A stretch of 64,000 bases of DNA from an uncultured Lachnospiraceae bacterium (GTDB lineage Bacteria; Bacillota; Clostridia; Lachnospirales; Lachnospiraceae): the NCBI GenBank assembly GCA_902789735.1, contig CADAOZ010000004.1, positions 62,001 through 126,000 on the forward strand. The letters run 5' to 3'. The notes under the pieces are model-generated. The model had not been told where the DNA came from. It worked only from the letters and a program-made list of their open reading frames with translations, and did no database searches. Each line of letters opens with the position of its first letter. Within the stretch, counting starts at the first letter, position 1. The position numbers and the translations under genes are program-made. This document shows, in pieces, positions 2 to 39,535 of the stretch.

Positions 2-1159
2 ATGACCGGCCTGATCCTGTTCGGACGAAAGGACACCCTTACAGAGGAACTGCAGGTTTCCGAGAACAATTATGGTTTCGGAATGGTCTCTGTTTATACC
101 AGTTCTCTGCTGGCTTCCCGTGTACTGATCAAGGCGTTTCCGCCCTGTGACACCCTGCGCTTCGATGATTCCGGCATGGCCCTGGACAATTTTGACGCAT
201 TGATCATCGGTTTTGGAAATCTGGGCCAGCATGTCCTCAAATCTCTGGTCATGAACGGCCAGTTCGTAGGCAGCCGTTTCCATGCGGCCGTCTTCGATCC
301 TGAGATCGATCAGGTCTCCGGATCGATCCGTCAGGAATGTCCGGGACTCTTCCGCTATTATGATATCGATCTGTTTCCTTATGATGGACGCAGCAGCGAA
401 TTATACCGCTATCTGGAACAGCATCTGGACAGCATTAAATATATCGTGGTCTCCACCGGCAGCCTCATGGTCAATACAGGGATCAGTGAAGATCTGAATA
501 TGTACCTGCTGCGCAGAGGACGTGATATACCTGTCCTGCAGTGTGATTATAACGGGGTCTTTTATAATTCCACCGATAATAAAAGCCTGCAGCTGCAGTC
601 GATCTATTCACCGGAGATCCTGTATTCGCACAGGATCGATCAACTTGCCATGACCCTCAACCATATCTACTGCAGCAATCCGGACCATACCGCTTTTGAG
701 GACTGGGTCGCCTGTGATTCCTTCAGCCGCGCCAGTTCCAGAGCCGCCGCCGACTTTTTCCCGGCGATCCTGCGCTGTGCCGGTATATCCGGAGAAGACG
801 CCGCGGGCGATCGATGGATCACGGATCCCATCCTGCTGGATCATCTGGGACATACAGAACACATGCGCTGGTGCGCCTTCCATCTGGTCTATGGCTTTGA
901 AGTCATGCCCGAAGAAGTCCTGGAGGAAAGGGCTGCCGCCTTCAGAGAAGAGTCTGCCCGGGAAGGAAGCTCCCGAATCAAACCGGCCAGGGATCTTGAC
1001 CGGTATATGCACGCCTGCATCATTCCCTGGGAGGAACTGGACGCCCTGTCTGCAAAGGTAACGGATCTGACCGGCAAAAAAACAGATTATAAGCAGAATG
1101 ACATTAACAGTATCATGACAATTCCCGCCGCCATCAAAGCGGATCACGGCAAATCATAA
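2..1159 (+). CDS. Rossmann (TrkA-N-like) plus RyR domain protein, 5' truncated
   Basis: The reading frame is cut by the left edge, and the ATG at position 2 is probably internal. Of the 385 visible residues, about 60-190 look like a TrkA-N/RCK-type NAD-binding Rossmann domain: a strand, then the glycine motif GFGNLGQ near residue 71, then an acidic VFDPE after the next strand. Residues about 280-350 resemble an RyR domain, with EHMRWCAF, a downstream glycine and the HACIIPWEELDAL block. RyR is known from ryanodine receptors and from bacterial proteins tied to NAD-derived nucleotides; its ligand here is unknown. The gene converges on the minus-strand RyR/kinase set, which carries the same Rossmann-then-RyR order, so I infer a shared system. 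An N-terminal part, perhaps a channel or second RCK domain, may lie outside the window. Confidence 0.7.
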   Translation: MTGLILFGRKDTLTEELQVSENNYGFGMVSVYTSSLLASRVLIKAFPPCDTLRFDDSGMALDNFDALIIGFGNLGQHVLKSLVMNGQFVGSRFHAAVFDPEIDQVSGSIRQECPGLFRYYDIDLFPYDGRSSELYRYLEQHLDSIKYIVVSTGSLMVNTGISEDLNMYLLRRGRDIPVLQCDYNGVFYNSTDNKSLQLQSIYSPEILYSHRIDQLAMTLNHIYCSNPDHTAFEDWVACDSFSRASSRAAADFFPAILRCAGISGEDAAGDRWITDPILLDHLGHTEHMRWCAFHLVYGFEVMPEEVLEERAAAFREESAREGSSRIKPARDLDRYMHACIIPWEELDALSAKVTDLTGKKTDYKQNDINSIMTIPAAIKADHGKS

Positions 1160-1186
1160 AAACAGGGAAGGCATAGCCTTCCCTGT
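1157..1186 (-). terminator. Rho-independent terminator of the RyR/kinase set
   Basis: A perfect 11-bp stem (1162-1172 with 1176-1186) and a 3-nt loop sit between two convergent stop codons. On the minus strand the stem is followed by a T run (complement of the A run at 1157-1162). On the plus strand no T run follows, so termination of the left gene is less certain. Confidence 0.75.
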
Positions 1187-1198
1187 ACGGATCATTTC

Positions 1199-1504
1199 TC
1201 AGTCCTTTTCTTTTTTCTCAATCGTATAACCCAGGACCGTGATCAGCTTCAGACTCTCCATTGCAGTCCTTCTGTCATATTCCTTTTCATTTTCCGGCAG
1301 TTCTTCATACGGTACCATACAGGGGGTCAGTTTGTTTCTGTCATCTCTGACCTCCCCCCATCTCCAGCCTTCCTGCATCCTGCCGTAAGCCCATACATTA
1401 TGTATATTCTCCGCAATCTTCTCTGTCAGGCTGATCAGATCTTCCGGCAGCTGTACATGTTCTGTATTGACCGGCCGCGGGATATACTGTCTGTCCTTTT
1501 CCAT
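1199..1504 (-). CDS. Stand-alone RyR domain protein
   Basis: A 101-aa protein that is almost entirely one RyR domain. It has the bacterial RyR signature: YIPRPV and LPEDL near the start, NVWAYGRMQEGW, then VPYEELPENEKEYDR and a closing helix ending LGYTI. No signal peptide or membrane segment is visible. I chose the ATG at 1504, not the one at 1522, because a GGGAGGT ribosome site lies between them at correct spacing for 1504. It follows the kinase gene by about 110 bp and has its own TATAAT at 1550-1555, so it may be made separately as well as by read-through. Single-domain RyR proteins are known in bacteria, but their ligand is not firmly established. A sensor or adaptor for the neighbouring multidomain proteins is an inference. 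Confidence 0.85.
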   Translation of the reverse strand: MEKDRQYIPRPVNTEHVQLPEDLISLTEKIAENIHNVWAYGRMQEGWRWGEVRDDRNKLTPCMVPYEELPENEKEYDRRTAMESLKLITVLGYTIEKKEKD

Positions 1505-1549
1505 TTGATTACCTCCCGACACTGATGATCACAGGACAATCCCTGATCT

Positions 1550-1555
1550 ATTATA
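1550..1555 (-). promoter_or_regulatory. -10 box for the stand-alone RyR gene
   Basis: Consensus TATAAT on the minus strand about 46 bp upstream of the ATG. The expected -35 position is A/T-rich and a poor match, so this is a partial promoter call. Confidence 0.4.
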
Positions 1556-1612
1556 GAATACTATCCTTTGCGGAAATTTTTTTTTGCGTCATTTTGTCCC
1601 GCACAGGAAAGA

Positions 1613-4600
1613 TCAGATGGCCTGCAGGGTTCCATCGACAGAAGCGATCAGCCCGGTCCGGAAAATTCGGTCCCGGCCGGCTTCTTTTCCTTCTCCTGTA
1701 AAGTCCGAGGCCAGACGGATATCGTCATAGAGTCTGCCTTCCGCCGCCTGCGTATAACGCAGGGCCGGTTCCGCGTCTTCCCCGCTGCACAGGACCCGCC
1801 GGACAGACCGGCTGCTGTAACGGAAAGAAATTTCCGTGCCTGTATCCGACTGCAGGATCCGCAGATCCCGCAGCAGAGAGTCCTCACGACCGGCTTCCCG
1901 CAGCCCCGCAAGCGCGGCTGCTGTCCCGCTGTGATCAGAGATTCCTTCCGGATCAGAAGGCAGAAAGCCCCGCATGTACAGGGAATGGTCCGCCACAGAA
2001 ACCGAATCCTGCAGGATCCGCACCCGGAACTGATGTCTCAGAGGTTCTTTTCCTGCCAGTCCGACCAGGCCGGAGAGCAGCCGGGCGACGCCTTCCTCCC
2101 GGGCGGTAAAGGAGATCCTTTCGTACTCCCCTTCCGCAGGATAGGAATATCCTTCCAGCAGCAGATCGTCGTTCTGCAGTAGCGCAAACACCCGGTCCAG
2201 TCCGCTATGGGAAAACGCAGTTCCGTCTGTAAAATCAGTCAGGACGGGAAAACCACCTGCCGGCGTTACGCCGGTAAGAGGCTGCCTGCGGATCCTGTCT
2301 TTTTCCAGCTGTCCCAGCAGCCCGGTAAGGGCGGTAAAGACCTCCCGGTCTGCTGTCAGTTTCCGCAGGGCCTCTGTCTCCCTGTCTGTCAGCCCGGTAA
2401 AGGATTCCCGGTCCCTGCTGTCCGGCTTATACCCCTGCATCCGCAGCAGCAGGCTGACAGGCAGGCATATTTTCCGATTCAAAATGACCGGCAGGGCGCA
2501 GCCGGCGCCACAGGCCGTGTCGCCGGCCCTGGTATCCATGCAGCAGTTACCGCCCTCCAGATGGAAAGCAGGCAGGCCGGCTGTCAGACGCCGGAATAAA
2601 GCCCTCTCTCCTTCTGCCGGACGGCATCCCATATCCAGATACATTCCGTCCTGCGGCAGTTCTTCCAGGGCTTCCGGGGTGATCACCCGCAGAGCTGTCC
2701 GGCATCCTGCCTCTTTCAGGAATCCGGCGTAACGGTCCCGCAGGTCATCGCTGCCGCTTTCCGGGCTCTCTGTTCCGGGCATCCGGACCAGGAACAGCTC
2801 GTCCGGACCGGTCCGGATCGATGAGAGCAGGTCCTCATAGGCGCTGCCGCTGCTGATCCGCAGGATGCGGAAAGCCGGCCTGGCCCCGCCCGGCGGGAAC
2901 AGAGCCAGGAGCCCGGGCACAGCCAGGATCACATCTTCATCAGAATCTTTAAAATCATGGCACAGATCCGCCTTATCCGCAGGGGCCGTCAGCCCCTGTC
3001 TTCCTGCCTCCCGGCGGACGGCCGCGATCCAAAGGCTCATGGCGTCCAGCCGGTCCAGTCCCAGGCCGTCGATCAGGCGGCCGGTCTCAGCCAGCGGTCT
3101 GTTCAGGACAAGGTCCCAGTATTCCGTACGGATCTGCCTGCGCGGCCCGGAGGAACAGATGCAGGGATGGATCCGGTGATCGGGATCTCTCCTGTCCTGC
3201 CAGTTATTGCCGTCTTTATAAGCGTAAGCGGCAATGGCCTCCCTGTCCGCCGGTCTGTTGGCACCGTGCAGGACCATAAAGGCAGTCCATGACAGATGTT
3301 CCAGCGCGATCAGACGTTCCCTGAGGTCCGCGTGCGCGGGATCATGCAGGAGCTGATGGAAACGGGAGGGCGCGGCGGGATCATGTCTGCTGATGCCGGC
3401 ACTTTCCAGGGTGTAGACCGCCCGTAGAGCACTGCGCTCGCTGCTTTGGATATTGTAAAGACTGGAGGCGTAATCCTGCAGGATCTCCTCCTCCGTGATA
3501 TCCGGCCGGCTCCCCCGCAGATATTGGCCATGGATCGAAGCCCCCATATCATAGATTCTGGAACCGACCCGGTTCTCATTATAATCCCCGTCCCTGGTAT
3601 ACAGCGGAATCCGGCTGATACAGGACGCGGGATCCTCCAGCGCGCTGTTCCCGAGATCGGCGTCCTTACTGCCGATCACCCAGATCTTGACAGATTTGTC
3701 CGGCGCGGCTTCCTGCCGGATCCTTTCCGCCAGCGCTTCGTTCTCCTCTCCTTTTTCCCGCAGCAGAAAGAAGATGCGGGCACCGGAGCGGGCCGCCGCC
3801 GCCAGAATGGCCCGGTCATTATCGGGTCCTGTGAAATGCAGGACCGCCGCCGGACGGGATACGATTTCCGGATCATAGTCAGACAGGATCCTGCCCCGGC
3901 TGTTGACGACCCGGACCAGGGCGGGCAGAAGGGGGTTCTCCCTGGCTCTGCACATGCCGGTCCACAGCTTTTCCATATCATTTCCGGCCAGCCACAGATG
4001 GATGTCCGTATCCAGCATGACAATGCCCGGAATCAGCGTTTCCAGCAGCGATCTGCCAAAAACATGGCCTCCGGTGATCAGGATGTCAGCCCTTTTTCTG
4101 CCTGTTCCCGGATACCGCAGATCCTCTGTCAGATAATCGCAGACCGGTGCTTTCTCCAGCAGATCATAACTGACATAGCTGAAATCAGCAGCGGCCCGTT
4201 TTTTCCGGACCTGGTATCTTCTGTAATGGAGCAGATCCAGCTCTTCATTAAGCTCCTCCACCAGGGTCTGCGCCGACTGACAGCGGCGGAAGGGATTGAC
4301 TTCCAGAACTGTTTTCAGGATCCCGGCCATTTTGCGGACCGCCTGGGTCCTGCCGCTGCTGCCAAAGGATTCCGGATACAGACGGCACAGCTCCCGGCGG
4401 ATCCTGTCCGGATCACCGGCCTCTCCGGGAGCGGGGATCCGGCCCAGGAGCAGACGGAACAGATAAATCCCGCAGCAGTAAAGATCGGAAGCGGGCTTCA
4501 GGACCCGTCCCAGCTGTTCCCGCCCGATATTCCTGGCATGGCGGAGCCTGTTTATTTCCGGTGAGATATATACAGAGTCAAAGTAGACCGCTTCCTGCCG

Positions 4601-5200
4601 GACATGGACCGTATACTTAAGAATGCTGTCCGCGTCGAAGAGCGTCATACGGGATATCTTATCGATCCAGAGGAAATTGTCGGGCTTACAGTCGGGCATG
4701 ATATAGCCCGCCTCATGGAGCAGCCCCATCAGTTCCGCCAGACGGATCGCCATTCCCAGCTTTTCCTGCAGGGATGCCGGTACGATATCCGTCAGCCTGA
4801 CGCCGTCATGCATGCGGCTGACCAGATAAAGGCCGTTTTCATTTTCTTCCAGCATATAGGGCTCTACCACGATTTCCATGGCGGCCGAAACAGACAGTTC
4901 CTGCTGACGGCGGAAACAGGCCCTGAACTGGTCCCGGCGCTGCTGCCAGCGGAGAGACTGCCTGGTCTCTTCCGTTACCTGCAGACCTGTCCCGTTTCTG
5001 AAGATCCCTTTCTCTTCCGGAAGGAGCGGCCAGAATTCCTTGATCACAACAAGGCGCAGCACCTGCCCCTCTCCGTCCAGCACAGAACCATAATAAGCCA
5101 GGCAGGTGGTTCCTCTTCCTGCCTGGCTGTCAATTCTGATAATCCAGTCCCTGATCCGGAGCAGCGTTCCGGGATGCAGGGGAATCCTGCTGTCTTTCAT
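1613..5200 (-). CDS. Ser/Thr protein kinase fused to Rossmann-like, RyR-like and Card1-like regions
   Basis: A 1195-aa multidomain protein. Residues about 10-320 form a protein kinase: glycine loop AGRGTT (28-33), VVIKE with Lys54, catalytic loop PDCKPDN (Asp170, Asn175; the HRD motif is altered), metal Asp189 in FDAD and SPE at 213-215. The key residues remain, so it is probably active. Residues about 370-560 look like a degenerate Rossmann/TrkA-like region. Residues about 630-690 resemble RyR, with EHLSWTAF and DPDHRIHPC, as in the plus-strand protein at the left edge. Residues about 750-1195 vaguely recall CARF/Card1 (DUF1887) proteins: a KICLPVSLLLRMQGY linker, then a GLDRVF helix and a final VDGTLQAI. 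There the catalytic Glu/Asp and the terminal Cys-Lys expected for a PD-(D/E)xK fold are missing. The start overlaps the upstream stop by ATGA, indicating translational coupling. Kinase call firm; RyR moderate; Card1 resemblance tentative. Confidence 0.75.
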   Translation of the reverse strand: MKDSRIPLHPGTLLRIRDWIIRIDSQAGRGTTCLAYYGSVLDGEGQVLRLVVIKEFWPLLPEEKGIFRNGTGLQVTEETRQSLRWQQRRDQFRACFRRQQELSVSAAMEIVVEPYMLEENENGLYLVSRMHDGVRLTDIVPASLQEKLGMAIRLAELMGLLHEAGYIMPDCKPDNFLWIDKISRMTLFDADSILKYTVHVRQEAVYFDSVYISPEINRLRHARNIGREQLGRVLKPASDLYCCGIYLFRLLLGRIPAPGEAGDPDRIRRELCRLYPESFGSSGRTQAVRKMAGILKTVLEVNPFRRCQSAQTLVEELNEELDLLHYRRYQVRKKRAAADFSYVSYDLLEKAPVCDYLTEDLRYPGTGRKRADILITGGHVFGRSLLETLIPGIVMLDTDIHLWLAGNDMEKLWTGMCRARENPLLPALVRVVNSRGRILSDYDPEIVSRPAAVLHFTGPDNDRAILAAAARSGARIFFLLREKGEENEALAERIRQEAAPDKSVKIWVIGSKDADLGNSALEDPASCISRIPLYTRDGDYNENRVGSRIYDMGASIHGQYLRGSRPDITEEEILQDYASSLYNIQSSERSALRAVYTLESAGISRHDPAAPSRFHQLLHDPAHADLRERLIALEHLSWTAFMVLHGANRPADREAIAAYAYKDGNNWQDRRDPDHRIHPCICSSGPRRQIRTEYWDLVLNRPLAETGRLIDGLGLDRLDAMSLWIAAVRREAGRQGLTAPADKADLCHDFKDSDEDVILAVPGLLALFPPGGARPAFRILRISSGSAYEDLLSSIRTGPDELFLVRMPGTESPESGSDDLRDRYAGFLKEAGCRTALRVITPEALEELPQDGMYLDMGCRPAEGERALFRRLTAGLPAFHLEGGNCCMDTRAGDTACGAGCALPVILNRKICLPVSLLLRMQGYKPDSRDRESFTGLTDRETEALRKLTADREVFTALTGLLGQLEKDRIRRQPLTGVTPAGGFPVLTDFTDGTAFSHSGLDRVFALLQNDDLLLEGYSYPAEGEYERISFTAREEGVARLLSGLVGLAGKEPLRHQFRVRILQDSVSVADHSLYMRGFLPSDPEGISDHSGTAAALAGLREAGREDSLLRDLRILQSDTGTEISFRYSSRSVRRVLCSGEDAEPALRYTQAAEGRLYDDIRLASDFTGEGKEAGRDRIFRTGLIASVDGTLQAI

Positions 5201-7977
5201 ACCAAATCAAATGTTCCTTCCTGTATCCTGAGCACACTCTCTCTGGAAGAATCCTTATAGGTCTTTTTGCTGCCGGGAATCTGTTTTTCCATGCGGCTGC
5301 CATCACTCCATCTGACACTGACATAATAGGAGGTTCCGGTCGACCAGGTCAGTCTGGGCACGGTATACAGCAGATTACCGGCAGGCGCCTCCCATTCAGC
5401 CCAGACTTCCTCTTTCCCCTCTCTGCGGGCCAGGATGCGGATCCAGACCGGCTGCTCACAAGCCGATTCTGTCGTAAAGTAATGTGACAGATGATGGCTT
5501 TTTTCAAAGAGGGCCTGGAACAGTTCAAAAGGATTCTCACAGGAGAAAAGCATGCTCAGAAAGCCCTCATAAGCATTACCGGGATAAAACTCCTGCATGC
5601 CGCAGCGTTCCAGATCCTGATCCACAATGTAACGGAATTCATCAAAAAGCTGGTCTACCCGGAGATCTCTGTCATTGGCGGAAAGCAGGTCGATCTCATT
5701 CATCACAAAATCCAGAAAATCCACCGTCAGAAGGAGATTACGCCTGCGTTCCTCGTCTACAGGGAAATGACTCAGCGTATTCTGGGTGATCTGTGCCCGT
5801 TTGAAAGCATCGGTGTTGAAGAGAAAACCAGGCCCGTAACTGTCGACGCCATGGAAATCCCGCATATCATTCATGCCGTTGCTGTCATAAATAAATTCCA
5901 GCATATTCTTGATATTGGCGGATCTGCGTACGGCCGTGTCCTGTCCGCTTTCAGGACCCGGCCGCAGGGCCAGCGGGGCAGGGTTGCTGATCCTGACGGA
6001 GCCTGTAAAAGCGGGATCTTTGAGAGAAAAGACGGTATTTCTTGTAACGACAGTCTCTTTCTCCCTGCTCTGGGCGTTCCTGCGGCTGTTTTCCAGTTTC
6101 TTCTCCAGCATTTCCAGGTTCTGCCTGTCCCAGAGGACATCCACTTCCACAGAATTCCATTTCTGCAGGCTGCTGCATTCCCGGACCGTCCTGTAAGAGA
6201 AACTGATTCCTTCTTTTTCAAACCCGATCACTGTACCGGCGGGAATGACTGTCCCGACTTTACAGCGGATCCGGAACATGCCCGGTTTGCTCTTTTTCCT
6301 GTCATCCGCGAAATACAGGATGTTCTGGCCGGGCAGGATTTCCAGAATCCGGTCGTTGAGAAGGGGATTTTCTGACTGCAGGCGGATCGGAATCTTTTTT
6401 TCCTGTTTTGACCTGCCCCGTCCAATGACGGTGATCAGATGTTTTTCCCTTACTTTCTGCGCGCCGCGGGTTGCTTTATAGAGGTTGTCGATCAGGATCT
6501 GTCTTTCTGCCGGGACCGGATCTTCCGGTCCGCTGCCGGAAAGAGTCGTCAGCTCCTCCACTTCCACATCAATTTCCTCTTCATCGGAGGCGTCCGGAAG
6601 GATACGGCACTCCTTCTCAAAGGTAAAAACCGCGCGGACGGGAATGCCGTTGTCCCTGATCCTGGTATCACAGGTCAGTACTGTTCCGGCCGGAATGATC
6701 CGCTCCGCCGTGTTGTCCGCCGCGTATGCAAGCGTCAGCTTCCGTCTGTACAGGTCCGTATCCATCCCTCTTCTCCGGGAGGATTTGATGAATTCCTTTA
6801 CTTCCCAGCTGTCCTTCATGGAAGCGTACAGTTTGTTCCATCGTTCGAAGAAGACCTCTTCCGCAGTCCGGATGATCCGTCTTGTCTCCGCGTTCCGGCC
6901 GGCCCATTCCAGATACTCCTGCAGGCGCCTGCTGACGGTCCTGAACAGATCCCGGCCGGCCTCTTTCTCAATTTCGGATAATTCGTTTTCAAAACGAAGG
7001 GTCAGGGGCAGATTCCCTGCATTGCCTCTCAGAAGCCATGCAGGAATATCAACCGCCTCCGTATCGGCAGTATTCCTGTTTCTGCTGTTGTCCCTGCTGT
7101 CTGCGGAATCCACAGGATACAGCTCCCTGAGTCTTTGCAGACAGCGGCTGCAGGTCTCTTCCGGCGGCGTGCAGTCCAGGGTGATCTTGGTGAACACTTC
7201 CTCCCGGTTCAGAAGGGCAGGTCTGGACTTGTGCAGGATCTTCTGCAGGAAACAGACATAGCGGTCAAAGCTCATACGATACGCAAAAGCCGTCCGTCTG
7301 ATCTGCTCCGCGTCGGGCTTTTTCAGCAGGCGGAAGAACCAGAGATGCCAGTGCCCGTCCAGGACCGGCAGCGTTCTTTCATCGGAAAGGCTCTCATCCC
7401 CCTCCAGGGCCGGGTCATCCATACAGAACACATCCCTGGTCCGTTCAGACAACAGGCTGTAGACCGTATACAGACCGTTCTCTTCTGTCAGATCCGGACA
7501 CGCCTGCTTCTCATCACGGTTCAGCAGCTGCTCCAGTTCACAGATCTGTTCCTCCGAAGCCATTTTGTCCCCGGAAGGACATTCCTGCAGATTCTCAAGC
7601 ATTTTACGCATCCGTTCCATATTGGCGGGACCAATGGAAATACCGTTCGCGATCATCAGGAAAGACAGGAGCATGGAAGAAACCGGTACAGAACGAAGCC
7701 GGGACACCGCGTTCAGGAAGGGCCTTGCGTCCCCCGCAATATCATCATCACTGGTCAGAAGCGGATCATCAAAATCCGACATGACATCCAGCGCGTCCCA
7801 GCGAAGGGCCAGACTTGCACCATACAGGTCATAATCCGGATCGGACGGAGTGATCACCGGCCGGTCCCCATAATCCTCATACAGCAGCAGCCACTCATCC
7901 CACTGTTCCAGCAGCTGCTGGGTCTCGCCGGAACTGATCAGTTCCATACTTTTGATTCTTTGTTTCATGTCTTCCAT
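5197..7977 (-). CDS. 926-aa protein of unknown function, partner of the kinase-RyR gene
   Basis: I do not recognise this family. No signal peptide or clear membrane helix is visible, so it is probably cytosolic. The first about 400 residues are helical and acidic. Two beta-rich segments follow, each with an IPAGTV motif (near residues 425 and 577), faintly like phage baseplate beta-domains. The last about 90 residues read like a beta-sandwich (WIRILARRE, WSTGTSYYVSVRW), possibly FN3-like. The start has a GGGAGA ribosome site 5 nt upstream. Its stop overlaps the kinase ATG, so the two are made together in similar amounts. It could be a scaffold, a kinase substrate or an effector; the sequence does not decide. 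Confidence 0.7.
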   Translation of the reverse strand: MEDMKQRIKSMELISSGETQQLLEQWDEWLLLYEDYGDRPVITPSDPDYDLYGASLALRWDALDVMSDFDDPLLTSDDDIAGDARPFLNAVSRLRSVPVSSMLLSFLMIANGISIGPANMERMRKMLENLQECPSGDKMASEEQICELEQLLNRDEKQACPDLTEENGLYTVYSLLSERTRDVFCMDDPALEGDESLSDERTLPVLDGHWHLWFFRLLKKPDAEQIRRTAFAYRMSFDRYVCFLQKILHKSRPALLNREEVFTKITLDCTPPEETCSRCLQRLRELYPVDSADSRDNSRNRNTADTEAVDIPAWLLRGNAGNLPLTLRFENELSEIEKEAGRDLFRTVSRRLQEYLEWAGRNAETRRIIRTAEEVFFERWNKLYASMKDSWEVKEFIKSSRRRGMDTDLYRRKLTLAYAADNTAERIIPAGTVLTCDTRIRDNGIPVRAVFTFEKECRILPDASDEEEIDVEVEELTTLSGSGPEDPVPAERQILIDNLYKATRGAQKVREKHLITVIGRGRSKQEKKIPIRLQSENPLLNDRILEILPGQNILYFADDRKKSKPGMFRIRCKVGTVIPAGTVIGFEKEGISFSYRTVRECSSLQKWNSVEVDVLWDRQNLEMLEKKLENSRRNAQSREKETVVTRNTVFSLKDPAFTGSVRISNPAPLALRPGPESGQDTAVRRSANIKNMLEFIYDSNGMNDMRDFHGVDSYGPGFLFNTDAFKRAQITQNTLSHFPVDEERRRNLLLTVDFLDFVMNEIDLLSANDRDLRVDQLFDEFRYIVDQDLERCGMQEFYPGNAYEGFLSMLFSCENPFELFQALFEKSHHLSHYFTTESACEQPVWIRILARREGKEEVWAEWEAPAGNLLYTVPRLTWSTGTSYYVSVRWSDGSRMEKQIPGSKKTYKDSSRESVLRIQEGTFDLV

Positions 7978-9041: not shown

Positions 9042-10454
9042 TTATTCGCCGATCGGCAGCAGCTGCATGGTGGGCGATATCAGACCGTATCCGTTATCCT
9101 GACTGGCGCGCTCGTGGAAGGAACGCATTCCCTTGCCTAAGGGCAGTACAGTACCGTCAGAACATGTATAGAACAGAGACTCGCCAAAGTCATGATCCTC
9201 CATATAAGGAGTGGATACCAGGAAGTATACATGCGAAGCTATATCATGATATTCCTCATTCGTCAGAGCCTCTTCCAGATACGCGTAGATATCAGGATTC
9301 TGCTCTTTGACCTCCTCGTAATAGACCAGATCGGACAGGTTGTCATCCCATGTGGAATCCATCTCATGCCATTTGCCATCTGTTTTGACGATATTCCAGG
9401 CATGGCCGCCGCCCTGGCCTTTTGTACCGTCCGGATTGAAATTGCCGCCGACGCCGACAACGGTGGAAGCCTCAATGCCGACCTGCTGGCACAGATAGAC
9501 CATGGCTGCGGAGTAACCGTCACATACACAGGTGTTCGCCTGACCCTGGGAGTTCTCGACCAGAGCGCCGTAGGCAGTGTGCGCGAAGTTATAGAAGTTC
9601 ACTTCCTTGTCCTGAGAGCTGAGGCATTCCATATCATAGGTGAGCATGCCGATCAGCTTGTCATGGATCTGTCTGACGGTTTCCTCCTCGGTACCGCTGG
9701 TATCGATATCGGCCAGGAAAGCGTCCACCGCGTCATTGAATTTGGTCATCTGCTCTTCATAATTGGTATAGGGGCCGGTCATACCGATGAGGACATTGTA
9801 CGTGCCGTCATCATTCTGCTGTCCGGTCGTCGCATAACCGAAGGCGGTCTCAATATAGTTGTAGAGCCAGAAATACTCCGGATGGTCATACATGAGCGCG
9901 TAATAGACTTTATAGAAATAAGTCATCCACTCCTCGGACTCGGGATCAATGGTCGTCGTGAGCATCAGGGCCAGCTGATCAGAAGTGGGATACTCTGTAA
10001 TGGTCTGCATGATATCATACAGGGCCACTTCATCGGGATTCAGCTGTTCATAATAATAGTAGTGTTCCGCTTTGTTAATCAGCAGAGAACCGGGATTTTC
10101 CTGCCCGTTGGAGAAAGCACGGGAGGCCTCCATTCTCTCCTCTTCTTCTTCTGTCGTAATGATTTCGGGACCTTCGATATCCGTATTGAGCACAAAGCCC
10201 TGACCGATGTTGAAGTTCACCGGGGTATCCTGCCCTTCCGCTTCTGTCACTTCCACAGTCGCTGCCTCTGCGGCATCGGCTTCCGCTTCCGCTTCCGGAG
10301 CCGCCTCGGCCTGCACTTCTGTCTCCTGCGTGGTAACAGCCTCTGCAGGCTCCTCTGCCGGCGCCGGCTGCGCCGCGCCGCCGCAGCCTCCCAGCAGCAG
10401 GGATGAAGCCATGACCAGGCTCAGAATTCCCGCAAGTAATGATTTCTTTTTCAT
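9042..10454 (-). CDS. Transglutaminase-like lipoprotein
   Basis: A 470-aa exported lipoprotein. The signal peptide ends in a lipobox (LLLGGC, Cys near residue 24), followed by a long Ala/Glu/Pro-rich linker to about residue 70. The C-terminal half holds a transglutaminase-like (papain-fold) domain with the triad in order: Cys in NTCVCDGYS, His in GGGHAWNIV, Asp in MDSTWDD. Such surface proteins may act as cysteine proteases or amide-bond enzymes; the substrate is unknown. The ATG has an AGGAGG site 5 nt upstream. It is monocistronic with a strong terminator. The domain call is firm, the activity is not. Confidence 0.88.
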   Translation of the reverse strand: MKKKSLLAGILSLVMASSLLLGGCGGAAQPAPAEEPAEAVTTQETEVQAEAAPEAEAEADAAEAATVEVTEAEGQDTPVNFNIGQGFVLNTDIEGPEIITTEEEEERMEASRAFSNGQENPGSLLINKAEHYYYYEQLNPDEVALYDIMQTITEYPTSDQLALMLTTTIDPESEEWMTYFYKVYYALMYDHPEYFWLYNYIETAFGYATTGQQNDDGTYNVLIGMTGPYTNYEEQMTKFNDAVDAFLADIDTSGTEEETVRQIHDKLIGMLTYDMECLSSQDKEVNFYNFAHTAYGALVENSQGQANTCVCDGYSAAMVYLCQQVGIEASTVVGVGGNFNPDGTKGQGGGHAWNIVKTDGKWHEMDSTWDDNLSDLVYYEEVKEQNPDIYAYLEEALTNEEYHDIASHVYFLVSTPYMEDHDFGESLFYTCSDGTVLPLGKGMRSFHERASQDNGYGLISPTMQLLPIGE

Positions 10455-10572
10455 AGATGCCTCCTGTAAATGTTCATGTGGTAAAAAACAAGTGAAACAT
10501 ATGATTTACCTAAATTCTACCATGGATGCAATTTTCCGTAAATAAACGAAAACCTTTTACCCCGCCACTTGT

Positions 10573-10914
10573 TCAGTGTTTTGTATCAAATCTGCAGGTA
10601 ATCTGATTCTCTTCACAGAACCTGCGGAAACGGGCCGCACAGTCCATGCCGGAATAGACCCGGCCGATGGTTTCCATGGGATCTTCGCCGCCGGCGGCCA
10701 GCAGGGCAAAGAGCTTTTCGGTGTTCTCCCGGTCGCAAATATAATAATACTCATAGCCCGGAACGCCGATAAAAGCCTGTACGGCAGCGCCTTCATCCCT
10801 TCCGGTGATGAAAAAGCAGCCGTCTTTGACTTCCGCCGTGATCCTCGTGGAAAATCCGGGCGTCTGATCCTCACAGAGCACCAGTTTCCTTCCGTTATAA
10901 TCCGCAGTATTCAT
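10573..10914 (-). CDS. Small hypothetical protein downstream of the symporter
   Basis: A 113-aa protein with no family I recognise. It is cytosolic in character, with a central aromatic GYEYYYICDRENT segment, a helix EKLFALLAA and a C-terminal RFRRFCEEN. I chose the ATG at 10914, preceded by GGAGGTG at 6 nt, over the ORF extension to 11016, which would run back into the symporter gene. It starts 29 bp after the symporter stop and is probably co-transcribed; a role linked to that transporter is a guess. Confidence 0.65.
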   Translation of the reverse strand: MNTADYNGRKLVLCEDQTPGFSTRITAEVKDGCFFITGRDEGAAVQAFIGVPGYEYYYICDRENTEKLFALLAAGGEDPMETIGRVYSGMDCAARFRRFCEENQITCRFDTKH

Positions 10915-10943
10915 TGCGCACCTCCGGTTCATCGGGTTTGAGC

Positions 10944-12311
10944 TTATTTGAGTCCTTCGACCAGAATGACCAGGATCAGGACCGGTACCACGAACTGGAA
11001 GAAGGGCTTCATCCATTTTTTCATCTTCAGGCCTCTGCCCTTATTGGCCTCCTCCAGGAAGCTGTCAAAGCCCCAGCCGAACTTGAATGTGCAGAAGAGC
11101 AGGAAGATCAGGGAGCCCAGAGGCAGCAGCAGATTGCTGACAATAAAGTCTTCGCTGTCCAGAACGTCTCCGCCCCGGATCAGATGGAGCCCGCTCCAGA
11201 GGTTGTAGCCCAGGACGCAGGGGATACTGGCGATAAATACAAAGAACAGGTTGATCAGGACTGCCTTCTGCCTGGTCCAGCCGAAATTATCCATGCAGCT
11301 GGCCAGCAGGTTCTCGAAGACCGCCGTAACGGTGGAGAAGCTGGCAAATGTCATGAACAGGAAGAAAAGCGTTCCCCAGATCCTGCCGCCGGGCATATTG
11401 ATGAATACATTCGGCAGGGTAATAAAGATCAGGGAAGGGCCTGCGTCAGGCTGAATGCCGTAGGAGAAACAGGCCGGAAAAATGATCAGACCTGACATCA
11501 GGGCAACAAAGGTATCCAGAATACCGATCTGAATGGATTCTCCGAACAGAGTCCGGTCATCCGCCATATAGGAACCGAAGATTTCCATGGCGCCTACGCC
11601 CAGGCTCAGGGTAAAGAAAGACTGGTTCATGGCTGCGATAATGACCTGCCAGATTCCGACCTCCCTGGCCCTGGCCATACTGGGCAGCAGATAGAAGGCA
11701 ACGCCCTCTCCGGCCCCTTTCAGAGTCAGGCTGTGCACCGCCAGGACCACGATCAGGCCCAGCAGGCAGAGCATCATGCCTTTGGTGATCCTTTCAAGAC
11801 CCGTCTGCACGCCTGTGGAGACGACCAGAAAGCCCAGGACGACGGTCAGTCCCATCCAAAGCATCATTTCCCCGGTGTTGCCCAGCATGCCGCCGAAAAT
11901 ACCGGCGACCTGATCGGCCGCCCCCTCTGTACCGGCGATGCCCTCGAACCGTCCCGTCAGGAATTTTACAAAATAGCCCAGCATCCATCCGGAAACGGTC
12001 GTGTAGTACATCATCAGAAGATAGCAGCCTGCCATACAGAACCAGCCGTGGATATGCCATTTGGATCCTTTGGGCTCCAGCGCCTTATAGCCGCCTACCG
12101 CGCTTTTGCGGCTGGCCCGTCCGACCGCCAGCTCCATAGTCATGACGGGAACGCCCATCAGGATCAGGAACAGCAGGTAGAAAATCACAAAGATGCCGCC
12201 GCCGTTGACGCCGGTCACATAAGGGAATTTCCAGACATTGCCGATCCCGATCGCGCATCCGGCACTGACCAGAATGAAACCGAGTCTTGAATTAAAACTG
12301 TCTCTTTCCAA
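10944..12311 (-). CDS. Sodium:neurotransmitter symporter (SNF/NSS) family transporter
   Basis: A 455-aa integral membrane protein of the LeuT-type NSS family, which couples Na+ entry to uptake of amino acids or related amines. TM1 carries the unwound ion and substrate-binding segment GCAIGIGNVWKFPY, followed by NGGGIFVIFYLL. About eleven or twelve hydrophobic segments are visible, the usual number for bacterial members. The start is TTG (GTGAGGT 8 nt upstream); the nearby ATG at -8 is out of frame and quickly stops. The short partner gene follows at 29 bp. Substrate unknown, though tryptophan, tyrosine and leucine are known for relatives. Confidence 0.92.
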   Translation of the reverse strand: MERDSFNSRLGFILVSAGCAIGIGNVWKFPYVTGVNGGGIFVIFYLLFLILMGVPVMTMELAVGRASRKSAVGGYKALEPKGSKWHIHGWFCMAGCYLLMMYYTTVSGWMLGYFVKFLTGRFEGIAGTEGAADQVAGIFGGMLGNTGEMMLWMGLTVVLGFLVVSTGVQTGLERITKGMMLCLLGLIVVLAVHSLTLKGAGEGVAFYLLPSMARAREVGIWQVIIAAMNQSFFTLSLGVGAMEIFGSYMADDRTLFGESIQIGILDTFVALMSGLIIFPACFSYGIQPDAGPSLIFITLPNVFINMPGGRIWGTLFFLFMTFASFSTVTAVFENLLASCMDNFGWTRQKAVLINLFFVFIASIPCVLGYNLWSGLHLIRGGDVLDSEDFIVSNLLLPLGSLIFLLFCTFKFGWGFDSFLEEANKGRGLKMKKWMKPFFQFVVPVLILVILVEGLK

Positions 12312-36286: not shown

Positions 36287-39200
36287 TTGAATACAACAAC
36301 TTCCGATACCCCGACCAATACATATAAAAATACATATAAATATGAAGCCTTCATATCCTACCGCCATACGCCGAAGGATACACAGGCCGCTGTATTTACC
36401 CAGCGGCATCTGGAGCATTACCGGATTCCCAAAGACATTCAGGAGAAGACCGGTATCAAAAAATTCAAAAAGCTCTTCCGGGATACCACGGAGCTGGCCG
36501 GCAGCAACGACCTGACTTCGGAAATCCAGGAAGCTCTGGCCGAATCCCGGTTTCTGATCGTCATATGCTCTCCGAAGATGAAGGAATCTGTCTGGGTCCA
36601 GCGGGAAATCAATCTCTTTCTGAAGACCCATTCCTATAATGACATCCTGACGGTAATCACAGAGGGCGAACCTTTTGATGTCTTACCGGACGTATTAAAA
36701 AAAGGCACCAGGGAAATCACAGATGAGAACGGCCGGATCATTAAGACGATCATCGAAACGGAACCTCTGTCCGCCGATTACCGCAAAGGCAGGTGGATCT
36801 ATTTTTCTGAAGAGCTGCCCCGGATCGCGGCCCGCTTCCTGAACTGCTCCTACGACGACCTGGTCAGGAGGGAAAGGGCTTACCGCAGGCGGCGGAATAT
36901 AGCAGCAGCTTCCTCAGTTTCTCTGGCCGCCATCATCATTATCTCTTATCTGCTCTGGTCCAACCATCAGATCCTGACGGCCCACCGGGAAAGCCTGCGT
37001 CAAAATACGCTGAATACAGCCACTCTGGCAGAGAATCTGCGGTCCCAGGGAAGGGAATCTGAGGCCCTGCGGCTGGTCTGTGAATCAGCAGGTTCCTTAA
37101 GCGAGAAGGAATACCCGCTGGCACCGGAACTCTTCCGTCAGCTGGAAGAGAGTCTGGATGTTTATGACGCGGACTACCGCAATGATTACAGTACACTTGA
37201 CAATATCCGCCTTCTGCAGGCCGACAGCCGGATCCGGGCCGCGGTACAGAGCGCGGACGGCCGGTTCATCTGCGCGGTCGACGCCGACAATACTGTATAC
37301 ATCTGGGACACATCCACAGCTCAGTGTACCTGTTCCTATACGCCGGATGCGGCTGCTGATTTACCACAGCTGGCGCCTGCGGATAACGCCTCTTTCCTGC
37401 TGACGTCGGAAAAAGAGGCCGTCCTGCTGGAGAGCGGCAATGAGGAGCCTGTCTGGAAGCAGTCCTGCTCCTCCACCGTGCTGGGTGCCTCCGCGCGGGC
37501 AGACGGCACCCTTTGTCTGATCTGCAGGAACGGTCTTATGATCCTGGACCGGGACAGCGGACAGATTCTGCAGGAAGTTTCCTATGGGGAAATCAGCAAA
37601 AACTTTCCGGCCAATATTACCCTGCCCGCATCTGAAACAGAGGACATGGCCTATAATAACAACGGTTTTCCGGAAATCATTTCCGTTTCTGCCGGCGGCC
37701 GTTATATAGTGGTCCAATACGCGGTTCCCAATATGAGCACCGCGTTTGCCCTGATCGATACGGAAGAACTGACTTTCACGTATCTGCTGACAGAAGGCGT
37801 CCTCTACAGTGCCGGCTGGACCTACCGGGTCCTGGATGACGGCAGTGTGCTCCGCAGCATCACAGAGCCCGCCGGTGAATCCTTTGAGCTTTACGATTCC
37901 AAAGGGGCCCTGCGCTGGAAAGCTGCACAGGACGCACCCATACCTTCCCTTGCTCCTTCTGCCGGGAACAGCACATATATCGACAACCGAAATGCCATTC
38001 TCAGTCAGGACGGGAAAAATATCGCGGCAGTTTATGACAATATGTTCCTTATCTTTGACGCCGCTGACGGAAAGATTCTGTCTGCAGGCGCCATGCCTTC
38101 CACTGTCCGCGGCCTGGCCCTTTATGGCCCTGAATTCCTTTGCTTTTCAGATCAGTGCCTCGCTGTCATGGGCGGTGGCGATGATTCCGGAAGTTATGCC
38201 GCAGGGCCAACAGATTTTTCCAAAGCTCTGATCCTGTCTGAAAAAGCGGAAGAAGGCACGTCCCTTCTTCTTGGTTATATCAGGGATGATTCCATCCTGC
38301 TCTATGGCTATAAGGAAGCAAACGAGGACATCCGCTATCTCGATGCCGATCCCGATGCCCTGCAGGGGATGACGCTGACGGATTCCTGTATGGCCGGCAG
38401 CCTGCTGCTGAGGATCTGCGAATCCGCCGATAAAGGGGAAGGCATCATGAGCCTGTCAGACATCTCCTCCGATACCGTCTTATGGTCTGTACCGCTGCCG
38501 GGTCCCGGCGCCTCTGTCCTGTCTATGACAGAGAGCGCGGCAGCAGCCGGAACCGGTCAGAAAGACACTAATTCCGCAGTCGATGACGGTTACCTGTATA
38601 TAAGGACCAGGCCTTCCGACGGTCAGGATCTCCTGTACCGGGTCTCCATGGAAACAGGAGAGGCGGAAACGATTGCTTATACAGGGGAAGCGCCGGAAGG
38701 AATCGTTGAACAGACACAGATCCTGGGCATGCAGGATCAAAAAGTCTATTACTGTACCAAAAGGACCATCCAGTTCAAAGCCTATACAGATCTGGGCGTG
38801 TATGATATAGAGACCGGTGACCATGTACGGTATGAAGCTCCCATGGAGAATCCCAATCTGACCTCCGCTTCTCTGCTGGAGAACGGACAGGTCCTTCTGA
38901 TCCTGGACCGGAAAGACAGTAATGGCTCACCCTCCAGCGTTCCGTACCTTTGCAGTCCGGAGACAGACGACTGGCTGGAGATGGATCCTCTGACAGAACA
39001 CTGCAGCGAAGGGGACCGCTTCCGTACCGTTCAGGATCCGAAACGGAATCGGATCTATGTCTATAACACTGCCCACAACCGGGTCTGGATCTACCAGTCC
39101 GGTGATACTGACGGATCTCTGATTGGTACACTGACACGCCCCGGTGATCCCATCGCGCAGATCAGTCTGTATGAGGATTCGATCCTGGCTGTCTGTGACA

Positions 39201-39535
39201 GCGGAGATCTGTACATTTATGGGGCGGATGACCAGCGTATCCTGGATTCCGTGCACCTGCCTTCCTCCGAACCGCTTTCCGCCGACAGTATCATCATCAC
39301 AGCATATGACGACAGTAATATCCTGATCCGGGACAGCAGGTCCGGATATATGGTCAATACCGACTACTGGTCCCTGCGCTCTGTGATTCCCGGCCTGATC
39401 GGATACGATCCTGTCAGCAGCTGTTTCATCACGGAAGCCTGGGAAAGCGGCCCGGCCGCCATTATTCCCGCCTACACAGAAAGCGGCCTGCTCCGCAAAG
39501 CCGGAGCACAGGAACCCCAGAGCGGGGAACCCTGA
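36287..39535 (+). CDS. TIR-TM-beta-propeller membrane protein
   Basis: A 1082-aa protein with an N-terminal TIR domain (residues about 18-190: YEAFISYRHTPKD, then SRFLIVICSPK and VQREINLFL, where Glu107 fits the catalytic Glu of NAD-cleaving TIRs). One membrane helix follows at about 204-224 (AAASSVSLAAIIIISYLLW), and the remaining about 800 residues look like WD40/YVTN beta-propellers (ADNTVYIWD, GAALD-type strands). Propellers face outside, TIR inside. TIR proteins in bacteria make NAD-derived signals or degrade NAD; this one resembles the TIR-WD40 branch often linked to signalling. The start is TTG, with AAGGAG 8 nt upstream. It is monocistronic. NADase activity is an inference. Confidence 0.85.
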   Translation: MNTTTSDTPTNTYKNTYKYEAFISYRHTPKDTQAAVFTQRHLEHYRIPKDIQEKTGIKKFKKLFRDTTELAGSNDLTSEIQEALAESRFLIVICSPKMKESVWVQREINLFLKTHSYNDILTVITEGEPFDVLPDVLKKGTREITDENGRIIKTIIETEPLSADYRKGRWIYFSEELPRIAARFLNCSYDDLVRRERAYRRRRNIAAASSVSLAAIIIISYLLWSNHQILTAHRESLRQNTLNTATLAENLRSQGRESEALRLVCESAGSLSEKEYPLAPELFRQLEESLDVYDADYRNDYSTLDNIRLLQADSRIRAAVQSADGRFICAVDADNTVYIWDTSTAQCTCSYTPDAAADLPQLAPADNASFLLTSEKEAVLLESGNEEPVWKQSCSSTVLGASARADGTLCLICRNGLMILDRDSGQILQEVSYGEISKNFPANITLPASETEDMAYNNNGFPEIISVSAGGRYIVVQYAVPNMSTAFALIDTEELTFTYLLTEGVLYSAGWTYRVLDDGSVLRSITEPAGESFELYDSKGALRWKAAQDAPIPSLAPSAGNSTYIDNRNAILSQDGKNIAAVYDNMFLIFDAADGKILSAGAMPSTVRGLALYGPEFLCFSDQCLAVMGGGDDSGSYAAGPTDFSKALILSEKAEEGTSLLLGYIRDDSILLYGYKEANEDIRYLDADPDALQGMTLTDSCMAGSLLLRICESADKGEGIMSLSDISSDTVLWSVPLPGPGASVLSMTESAAAAGTGQKDTNSAVDDGYLYIRTRPSDGQDLLYRVSMETGEAETIAYTGEAPEGIVEQTQILGMQDQKVYYCTKRTIQFKAYTDLGVYDIETGDHVRYEAPMENPNLTSASLLENGQVLLILDRKDSNGSPSSVPYLCSPETDDWLEMDPLTEHCSEGDRFRTVQDPKRNRIYVYNTAHNRVWIYQSGDTDGSLIGTLTRPGDPIAQISLYEDSILAVCDSGDLYIYGADDQRILDSVHLPSSEPLSADSIIITAYDDSNILIRDSRSGYMVNTDYWSLRSVIPGLIGYDPVSSCFITEAWESGPAAIIPAYTESGLLRKAGAQEPQSGEP

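Follow-up and report, generated by a model that had tools for sequence, protein, structure and literature searches.

An RyR-centred candidate nucleotide-signalling module with kinase and membrane proteins in an uncultured Lachnospiraceae bacterium

What signal is read by a bacterial locus in which ryanodine receptor (RyR)-type domains occur in three different proteins, one of them a kinase? The locus lies at one end of the window, the whole 64,000-nucleotide stretch analysed here (uncultured Lachnospiraceae bacterium, assembly GCA_902789735.1, contig CADAOZ010000004.1, positions 62,001 to 126,000 of the forward strand), and is formed by the minus-strand run N926–K1195–R107 and by T628, convergent with it on the plus strand. 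In the Thoeris defence, a TIR enzyme makes 2'/3' cyclic ADP-ribose (2'/3'cADPR) and an effector reads this signal. The moderately favoured reading is that the locus is a nucleotide-signalling module akin to TIR/Thoeris systems, built around RyR domains and with a kinase and a membrane protein as outputs. A first-pass annotation of the same DNA had described three RyR-type domains and proposed a kinase system fed by nucleotides derived from nicotinamide adenine dinucleotide (NAD). Its observation is confirmed and its interpretation partly supported. The system is larger than it held: the RyR/kinase core stands, but a CARF region in K1195, the membrane nature of T628 and an adjoining FtsZl1 (Tubulin_2) cluster had been missed.

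The open reading frames of the RyR/kinase locus are borne out at the positions proposed earlier. T628 enters the window with its C-terminal 385 codons (2..1159, plus strand), while its first 243 codons lie beyond the window edge; the full length is 628 aa, starting at G000:C4:61273. R107, the stand-alone RyR protein, occupies 1199..1522 (minus strand) when read from GTG; the likelier start is the ATG in the same frame at 1504, which gives the 101 aa also seen in the orthologue of genome G233. K1195 follows at 1613..5200 and N926 at 5197..7977, both on the minus strand; N926 overlaps the K1195 start by 4 bases (ATGA), the coupling already recognised in the first-pass annotation. Between T628 and R107, a perfect 11-bp inverted repeat with a 3-nt loop and a T-run on the minus-strand side, read from the sequence (1162..1186), is likely the terminator of the N926–K1195–R107 run.

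All 91 positions of PF02026 are covered by the match to R107 (E = 1.4e-35; 121.8 bits against a curated cut-off of 27.4), and no other protein of the 2.51-Mb genome reaches this family at E ≤ 0.001; phmmer also connects R107 to RyR chains in PDB. The RyR-like domains of T628 (approximately residues 512–609) and K1195 (approximately residues 598–714; 3059..3409, minus strand) have no Pfam match and are reached by iterated and profile-to-PDB searches. Starting from R107, the iterated profile reaches T628 in search 2 (2.8e-5) and K1195 in search 3 (7e-7, later 1e-12 to 4e-15), with zero reversed sequences listed in any round. In a profile made of T628-type and K1195-type domains, without any stand-alone RyR protein, RyR structures constitute 10 of the 11 PDB matches; the strongest match (E = 1.9e-6) is to a chain that holds two RyR copies, each reaching 0.11–0.12 by itself, and the remaining matches range from 0.02 to 0.5. 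The K1195-type profile alone also ranks RyR first in PDB, but at E = 0.13. By sequence comparison, T628 and K1195 are judged to carry remote RyR domains homologous to R107.

The residues expected to line the pocket are retained in part. In phage RyR domains, binding or cleavage of 2'/3'cADPR is reported to involve H75, W78, H100 and D117, with H75 and W78 of the phage protein RyDEP contacting the cADPR ligand (PMC13232231). All 22 RyR domains of one alignment keep the histidine and tryptophan of the EHxxW motif, and a second histidine is nearly invariant in a further RyR alignment. By alignment, the motif pair corresponds to RyDEP H75/W78 and is kept in R107, T628 and K1195 (H635/W638 in EHLSW); R107 H41, W44 and D83 line up with H75, W78 and D117, and the H100 position is kept in T628 (H580) and K1195 (H678, in IHPC). 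Stand-alone RyR genes tend to have larger companions, with a longer RyR gene within 5 kb in 10 of 13 distinct cases. Separately, two short unannotated phage-labelled records from human faeces (H6 MT837259.1 and H7 MT836850.1) contain RyR stretches 54–55% identical to R107.

K1195 joins several domains in one chain. Its kinase domain (approximately residues 19–330; 4211..5146, minus strand) matches Pkinase at E = 9.9e-9, with 35.4 bits against a cut-off of 31.7, and contains the candidate active-site residues K54, D170, N175 and D189, among them the lysine and the catalytic aspartates. Together with the remote RyR domain, this bears out the kinase–RyR fusion described earlier. A Rossmann-like domain, judged by eye, is also present. 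The C-terminal half of K1195 is predicted to adopt a Can2/Card1-like CARF fold (1871..2941, minus strand, boundaries approximate). The AlphaFold2 (AF2) model of residues 340–1195 (856 residues, 17 sequences) has a mean predicted local distance difference test (pLDDT) score of 79.1 and a predicted template modelling (pTM) score of 0.67. Its top Foldseek matches are the Can2 structures 7bdv (E = 7.2e-4, prob 1.00) and 8bao (E = 1.1e-3), the TM-scores to 7bdv being low (0.13/0.28) over the multidomain query. Related proteins match Card1 or CARF-PDDEXK models. The relatives L106 (with kinase) and L107 (without kinase) retain a PDDEXK-like stretch, NE.D..CK; this stretch is absent from K1195, whose nuclease end has decayed.

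Such an architecture invites a different answer to the opening question, in which K1195 is a kinase under CARF control that descends from a nuclease of the Can2/Card1 type, the messenger is a cyclic oligoadenylate or a comparable CARF ligand, and the RyR domain serves structurally or as a secondary site. The Can2 structures at the top of the Foldseek matches, some of them with cA4, and the PDDEXK ends retained in relatives with Card1 or CARF-PDDEXK matches speak for it. Even so, it is held to be quite unlikely: five kinase–Rossmann–RyR proteins of 880–929 aa (L100–L103, L105) have lost the CARF region and keep the Rossmann-RyR part, which therefore represents the constant core, and RyR loci are linked to TIR/DUF4062 genes, although the search took in neither cyclase nor CRISPR genes. 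Among phage records, five are matched by K1195, all confined to residues 91–311 in the kinase part. In addition, four loci (L110, L113, L115, L116) pair a Rossmann-RyR-type gene (956–1080 aa) with a convergent large protein also ending in an RyR match; amid recurring small genes, this arrangement looks like a mobile or defence block.

N926 matches no family in Pfam, NCBIfam, PADLOC or PHROGs and shows no RyR sign. Its AF2 model (11 sequences) is unusable, with a mean pLDDT of 47.3. An iterated hidden Markov model finds its C-terminal module of about 120 aa, Nct (approximately residues 712–831; 5485..5844, minus strand), in the gene beside many large Lachnospiraceae kinases. Conserved co-occurrence of the 926-residue and kinase–RyR genes had been set beforehand as a test of the proposal and is borne out: an N926-type gene is observed within 2.1 kb and on the same strand in 13 of 14 distinct kinase–RyR fusions, a count that includes both the window and its G233 orthologue of near-identical order and whose 14th member (L206) sits on a cut-off 3.5-kb contig. 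In L106, the N-type gene, recovered by six-frame search, overlaps the kinase gene. N-type genes also adjoin kinases without RyR (within 5 kb in 16 of 33 distinct cases, many of the 33 on short fetched stretches); N926 is therefore regarded as a kinase partner and not as an RyR-specific part.

Further kinase and partner pairs, with NB-ARC, NACHT, TPR or beta-propeller matches in the kinase tail (L036, L037, L040, L077), point to a wider uncharacterised kinase-STAND family. One partner gene with the N926 C-terminal module (L034:9569-11848, genome G175) also matches sigma-70 regions 1.2 and 2. Two N-type proteins give baseplate-type Pfam matches, Gp6_2nd in one member out of 11 (E = 4.7e-4) and Baseplate_J in L161 (E = 2.1e-4); these are not used.

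T628 is a membrane protein with at least two N-terminal transmembrane (TM) segments. The convergent RyR protein of the first-pass annotation keeps its RyR-like domain, but its 385 aa are the window-cut tail of the longer membrane protein. Likewise, the Rossmann domain assigned there retains a GFGNLG motif at residue 313, in a region (or regions) judged Rossmann-like by eye, but the TrkA-like label lacks a family match. A TVGYGD-like selectivity filter, the sign looked for as a test of an RCK-type K+ channel, is absent from T628 and present in L058, L063 and L064. T628 has no match in PHROGs, nor its window part in NCBIfam.

The link with NAD comes from the neighbours of RyR genes in relatives. 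TIR enzymes are a class known to make NAD-derived alarm molecules. RyR-like genes occur in at least 74 of 397 Lachnospiraceae genomes (at least 103 matches in at least 86 loci, a lower bound with at most 10 candidates per genome scored first). The 84 loci outside the bacterium's own genome, some of them cut by contig ends, were scanned with purpose-built TIR and DUF4062 profiles, and in 35 of them a gene of either family lies within 5 kb. The pair lies on the same strand in 31 of these 35, and the nearest gap is at most 150 bp in 24. Setting aside 14 loci with only K+-channel-type RyR genes, the linkage is 35 of 70. In the first 100 genomes, where Pfam TIR_2 gives 77 matches at E ≤ 0.001 (0.27 per Mb), TIR_2 lies within 6 kb of 10 of 26 RyR loci against 0.33% expected for each (binomial p = 8e-19, including the own genome's two RyR loci; p = 7e-16 in RyR-positive genomes alone). 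According to a 2026 report, DUF4062 is a family of TIR-like NADases that act in defence against phages (PMC13174449).

Five TIR_2 genes, but no DUF4062 match at E ≤ 0.01, are present in the own genome. A second RyR locus there (G000:C2, L098:7376-9550 and 9579-11804) encodes a 724-aa HRDHYSH (HD-like) protein with a C-terminal RyR-like domain, and one of the five TIR_2 genes is 29 bp away; HD-RyR genes similar to it adjoin TIR genes in L194, L195 and L205. K+-channel-type proteins with a C-terminal RyR domain, mostly without TIR neighbours (L058, L063, L064, several of L155–L175, L183), form a separate, unexplained use of RyR. Because of this type, with a TIR/DUF4062 neighbour at only 1 of its 19 genes, a general assignment of RyR genes to TIR systems was given up.

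The NAD link proposed in the first-pass annotation is thus supported through TIR/DUF4062 neighbours in relatives, but several findings weigh against the favoured reading. Its main weakness is the lack of any TIR or DUF4062 gene in the 5 kb around the window's own locus; the closest TIR gene detected on the contig encodes a 1082-aa TIR_2 protein at 36287–39535 (plus strand; E = 1.1e-8), a possible trans partner of the RyR module. Outside the own genome, 49 of the 84 RyR loci have no TIR/DUF4062 neighbour within 5 kb (some being cut by contig ends), and the K+-channel-only loci have none in 14. A one-step profile of six stand-alone RyR proteins misses K1195 (E = 3) and T628 (not listed), the best reversed protein reaching E = 0.018 and none falling below 1e-3, and no RyR structure appears among the 50 Foldseek matches listed for the whole K1195 model. 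The first-pass annotation had named models without an RyR fold in its two larger proteins as a second ground for refutation; here the K1195 model is good, with no RyR structure among those matches, and the N926 model is too poor to use. In the pocket, the RyDEP H100 position is T66 in R107, and the D117 position is clear in R107 only, T628 and K1195 lacking a clear alignment there. The CARF region of K1195 could also bind a different messenger. For the window locus, a lost local TIR gene, action in trans or another ligand are all possible.

Related genomes bring such genes together as well. Genome G233 repeats the window order (vWA-like, Sel1, T628, R107, K1195, N926) with 77% identity in the non-kinase part of K1195, and the closest carrier among the named records found is the uncultured Lachnospiraceae bacterium RUG578. 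In G288:C16, a single strand carries genes for a vWA-like protein, Tubulin_2, homologues of the next two cluster proteins, a lipoprotein-like protein, a TM-RyR protein (825 aa), a TIR-LRR protein (729 aa; TIR_2 2.3e-20), an N-type protein (647 aa) and a kinase–RyR protein (1427 aa), with a further TIR gene upstream. In G312:C10, the order is N-type (565 aa), PP2C-like, kinase–RyR (1507 aa), stand-alone RyR (93 aa; PF02026 4.4e-36), a 157-aa gene and TIR. In these 2 of the 14 fusions, the N-type/kinase–RyR pair and a TIR gene belong to one run of genes on the same strand; neither a TIR nor a DUF4062 gene lies within 5 kb of the remaining 12, the one in the window among them.

To the left of T628, a divergent cluster encodes an SseB/Sel1 protein, a vWA-like membrane protein, a Tubulin_2 (FtsZl1) protein (Pfam E = 1.9e-44) and a pair of large proteins in which TM-like stretches are seen by eye. 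The vWA-like neighbour (748 aa) has a DDSWS motif by eye, without a Pfam vWA match. RyR is commoner in Tubulin_2 genomes (11 of 20 versus 63 of 377; Fisher p = 1.9e-4, own genome included), and in L112 (uncultured Clostridiales RUG135) Tubulin_2, vWA-like and TM-RyR genes stand together with a gene that is DUF4062-like by eye. The FtsZl1 cluster and the RyR genes as one fixed unit were dropped as a candidate: the G243 cluster has no RyR genes in the 40 kb read, and just 5 of 20 Tubulin_2 loci, own locus included, have an RyR gene within 20 kb.

This neighbourhood bears on two other accounts. The locus might belong to a housekeeping envelope or ion-balance system around FtsZl1-vWA, with RyR as an adenine-nucleotide energy gauge and no defence role; the cluster adjoining T628, the five Tubulin_2 loci with nearby RyR genes and the TIR-free K+-channel-type loci are in keeping with it, as are the adenine-containing ligands bound by animal R12 domains (PMC13232231). 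It is nonetheless considered unlikely in view of the TIR/DUF4062 linkage in half of the other RyR loci and the patchy spread, relatives of the non-kinase part of K1195 being found in 5 of 51 genus genomes and RyR only in the fraction of family genomes given above. Alternatively, no single system would exist, and RyR, TIR, kinase and tubulin genes would merely gather in the same genome islands, as the RyR-free G243 cluster and the gene orders varying among loci suggest. The same-strand runs in G288 and G312, the pairing in nearly all fusions, and the kinase and RyR fused in one chain make this very improbable.

For the favoured TIR/Thoeris-like module, we infer a ligand, a route of kinase activation and a role in phage defence as follows. 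A triggered TIR-type NADase, encoded elsewhere in the genome (adjacent in relatives), would make an ADP-ribose-derived nucleotide to be read by the RyR pockets. In K1195, nucleotide binding at the RyR domain, perhaps with a second nucleotide on the CARF region, would switch on the kinase, with which N926 would work; binding at the RyR domain of T628 would change the membrane protein. R107 may buffer or erase the signal, by analogy with phage single-RyR proteins, which are reported to degrade or soak up 2'/3'cADPR (PMC13232231).

The gene set of this gut bacterium may represent an unstudied way to read NAD-derived alarm molecules. With their kinase, membrane, HD-like and nuclease partners and their statistical tie to TIR/DUF4062 genes, bacterial RyR proteins are candidate receptors and erasers of NAD-derived signals, and the old question of cADPR and the ryanodine receptor becomes testable in small bacterial proteins. 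A bolder and rather doubtful extension is that a large uncharacterised class of TIR circuits uses bacterial RyR domains as receptors to drive kinases, membrane proteins, HD enzymes and nucleases, with R107-type genes as host-side erasers. If true, the long-debated link between cyclic ADP-ribose and the animal ryanodine receptor would have a bacterial immune counterpart.

In PADLOC, NCBIfam and PHROGs, the only models matched are those for the kinase part and phage RyR families whose function is unknown, and no description of host RyR kinases or of a TIR-RyR system was found among the titles and abstract starts listed from an open-licence library. A 2015 paper on 'nucleotide-centric systems' may already note RyR-TrkA-TIR links and so may have priority for this association. 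A 2026 paper reports that RyR domains of phages bind or destroy Thoeris signals, and its available part does not say what bacterial RyR proteins do (PMC13232231). R107 resembles the RyDEP proteins described there in its PF02026 domain and three aligned pocket residues; however, it is a bacterial gene beside RyR effector genes with T66 at the H100 position, whereas RyDEP is a phage evasion enzyme.

K1195 shares the predicted fold of its C-terminal half with the Can2/Card1 CARF nucleases, but its nuclease end is decayed and a kinase is added in front (CRISPR genes lay outside the searches). Its kinase domain resembles PD-T4-6 and other defence kinases (best PADLOC E = 7.2e-13), although these matches lie within residues 87–331 and include no RyR, Rossmann or CARF part. 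The Tubulin_2 and vWA-like membrane proteins recall the FtsZl1-vWA systems, in whose papers kinases are named (Makarova and Koonin 2010, PMC2875224; Kaur et al. 2020, PMC7159879); however, the word RyR is absent from the main texts of both, and RyR genes lie beside some such clusters only.

Thoeris sensors are SLOG or Macro domains, whereas the sensor here would be RyR, with a kinase and membrane proteins as outputs. No ThsA-type match was found by PADLOC in the four window proteins or in full-length T628. The locus is treated as a variant of TIR-nucleotide signalling and not as a member of Thoeris, because the window copy has no TIR gene beside the effector, the nearest 5 kb being free of one. 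Its likeness to Thoeris lies in the many relatives that place a TIR-type gene beside a separate putative RyR sensor-effector gene.

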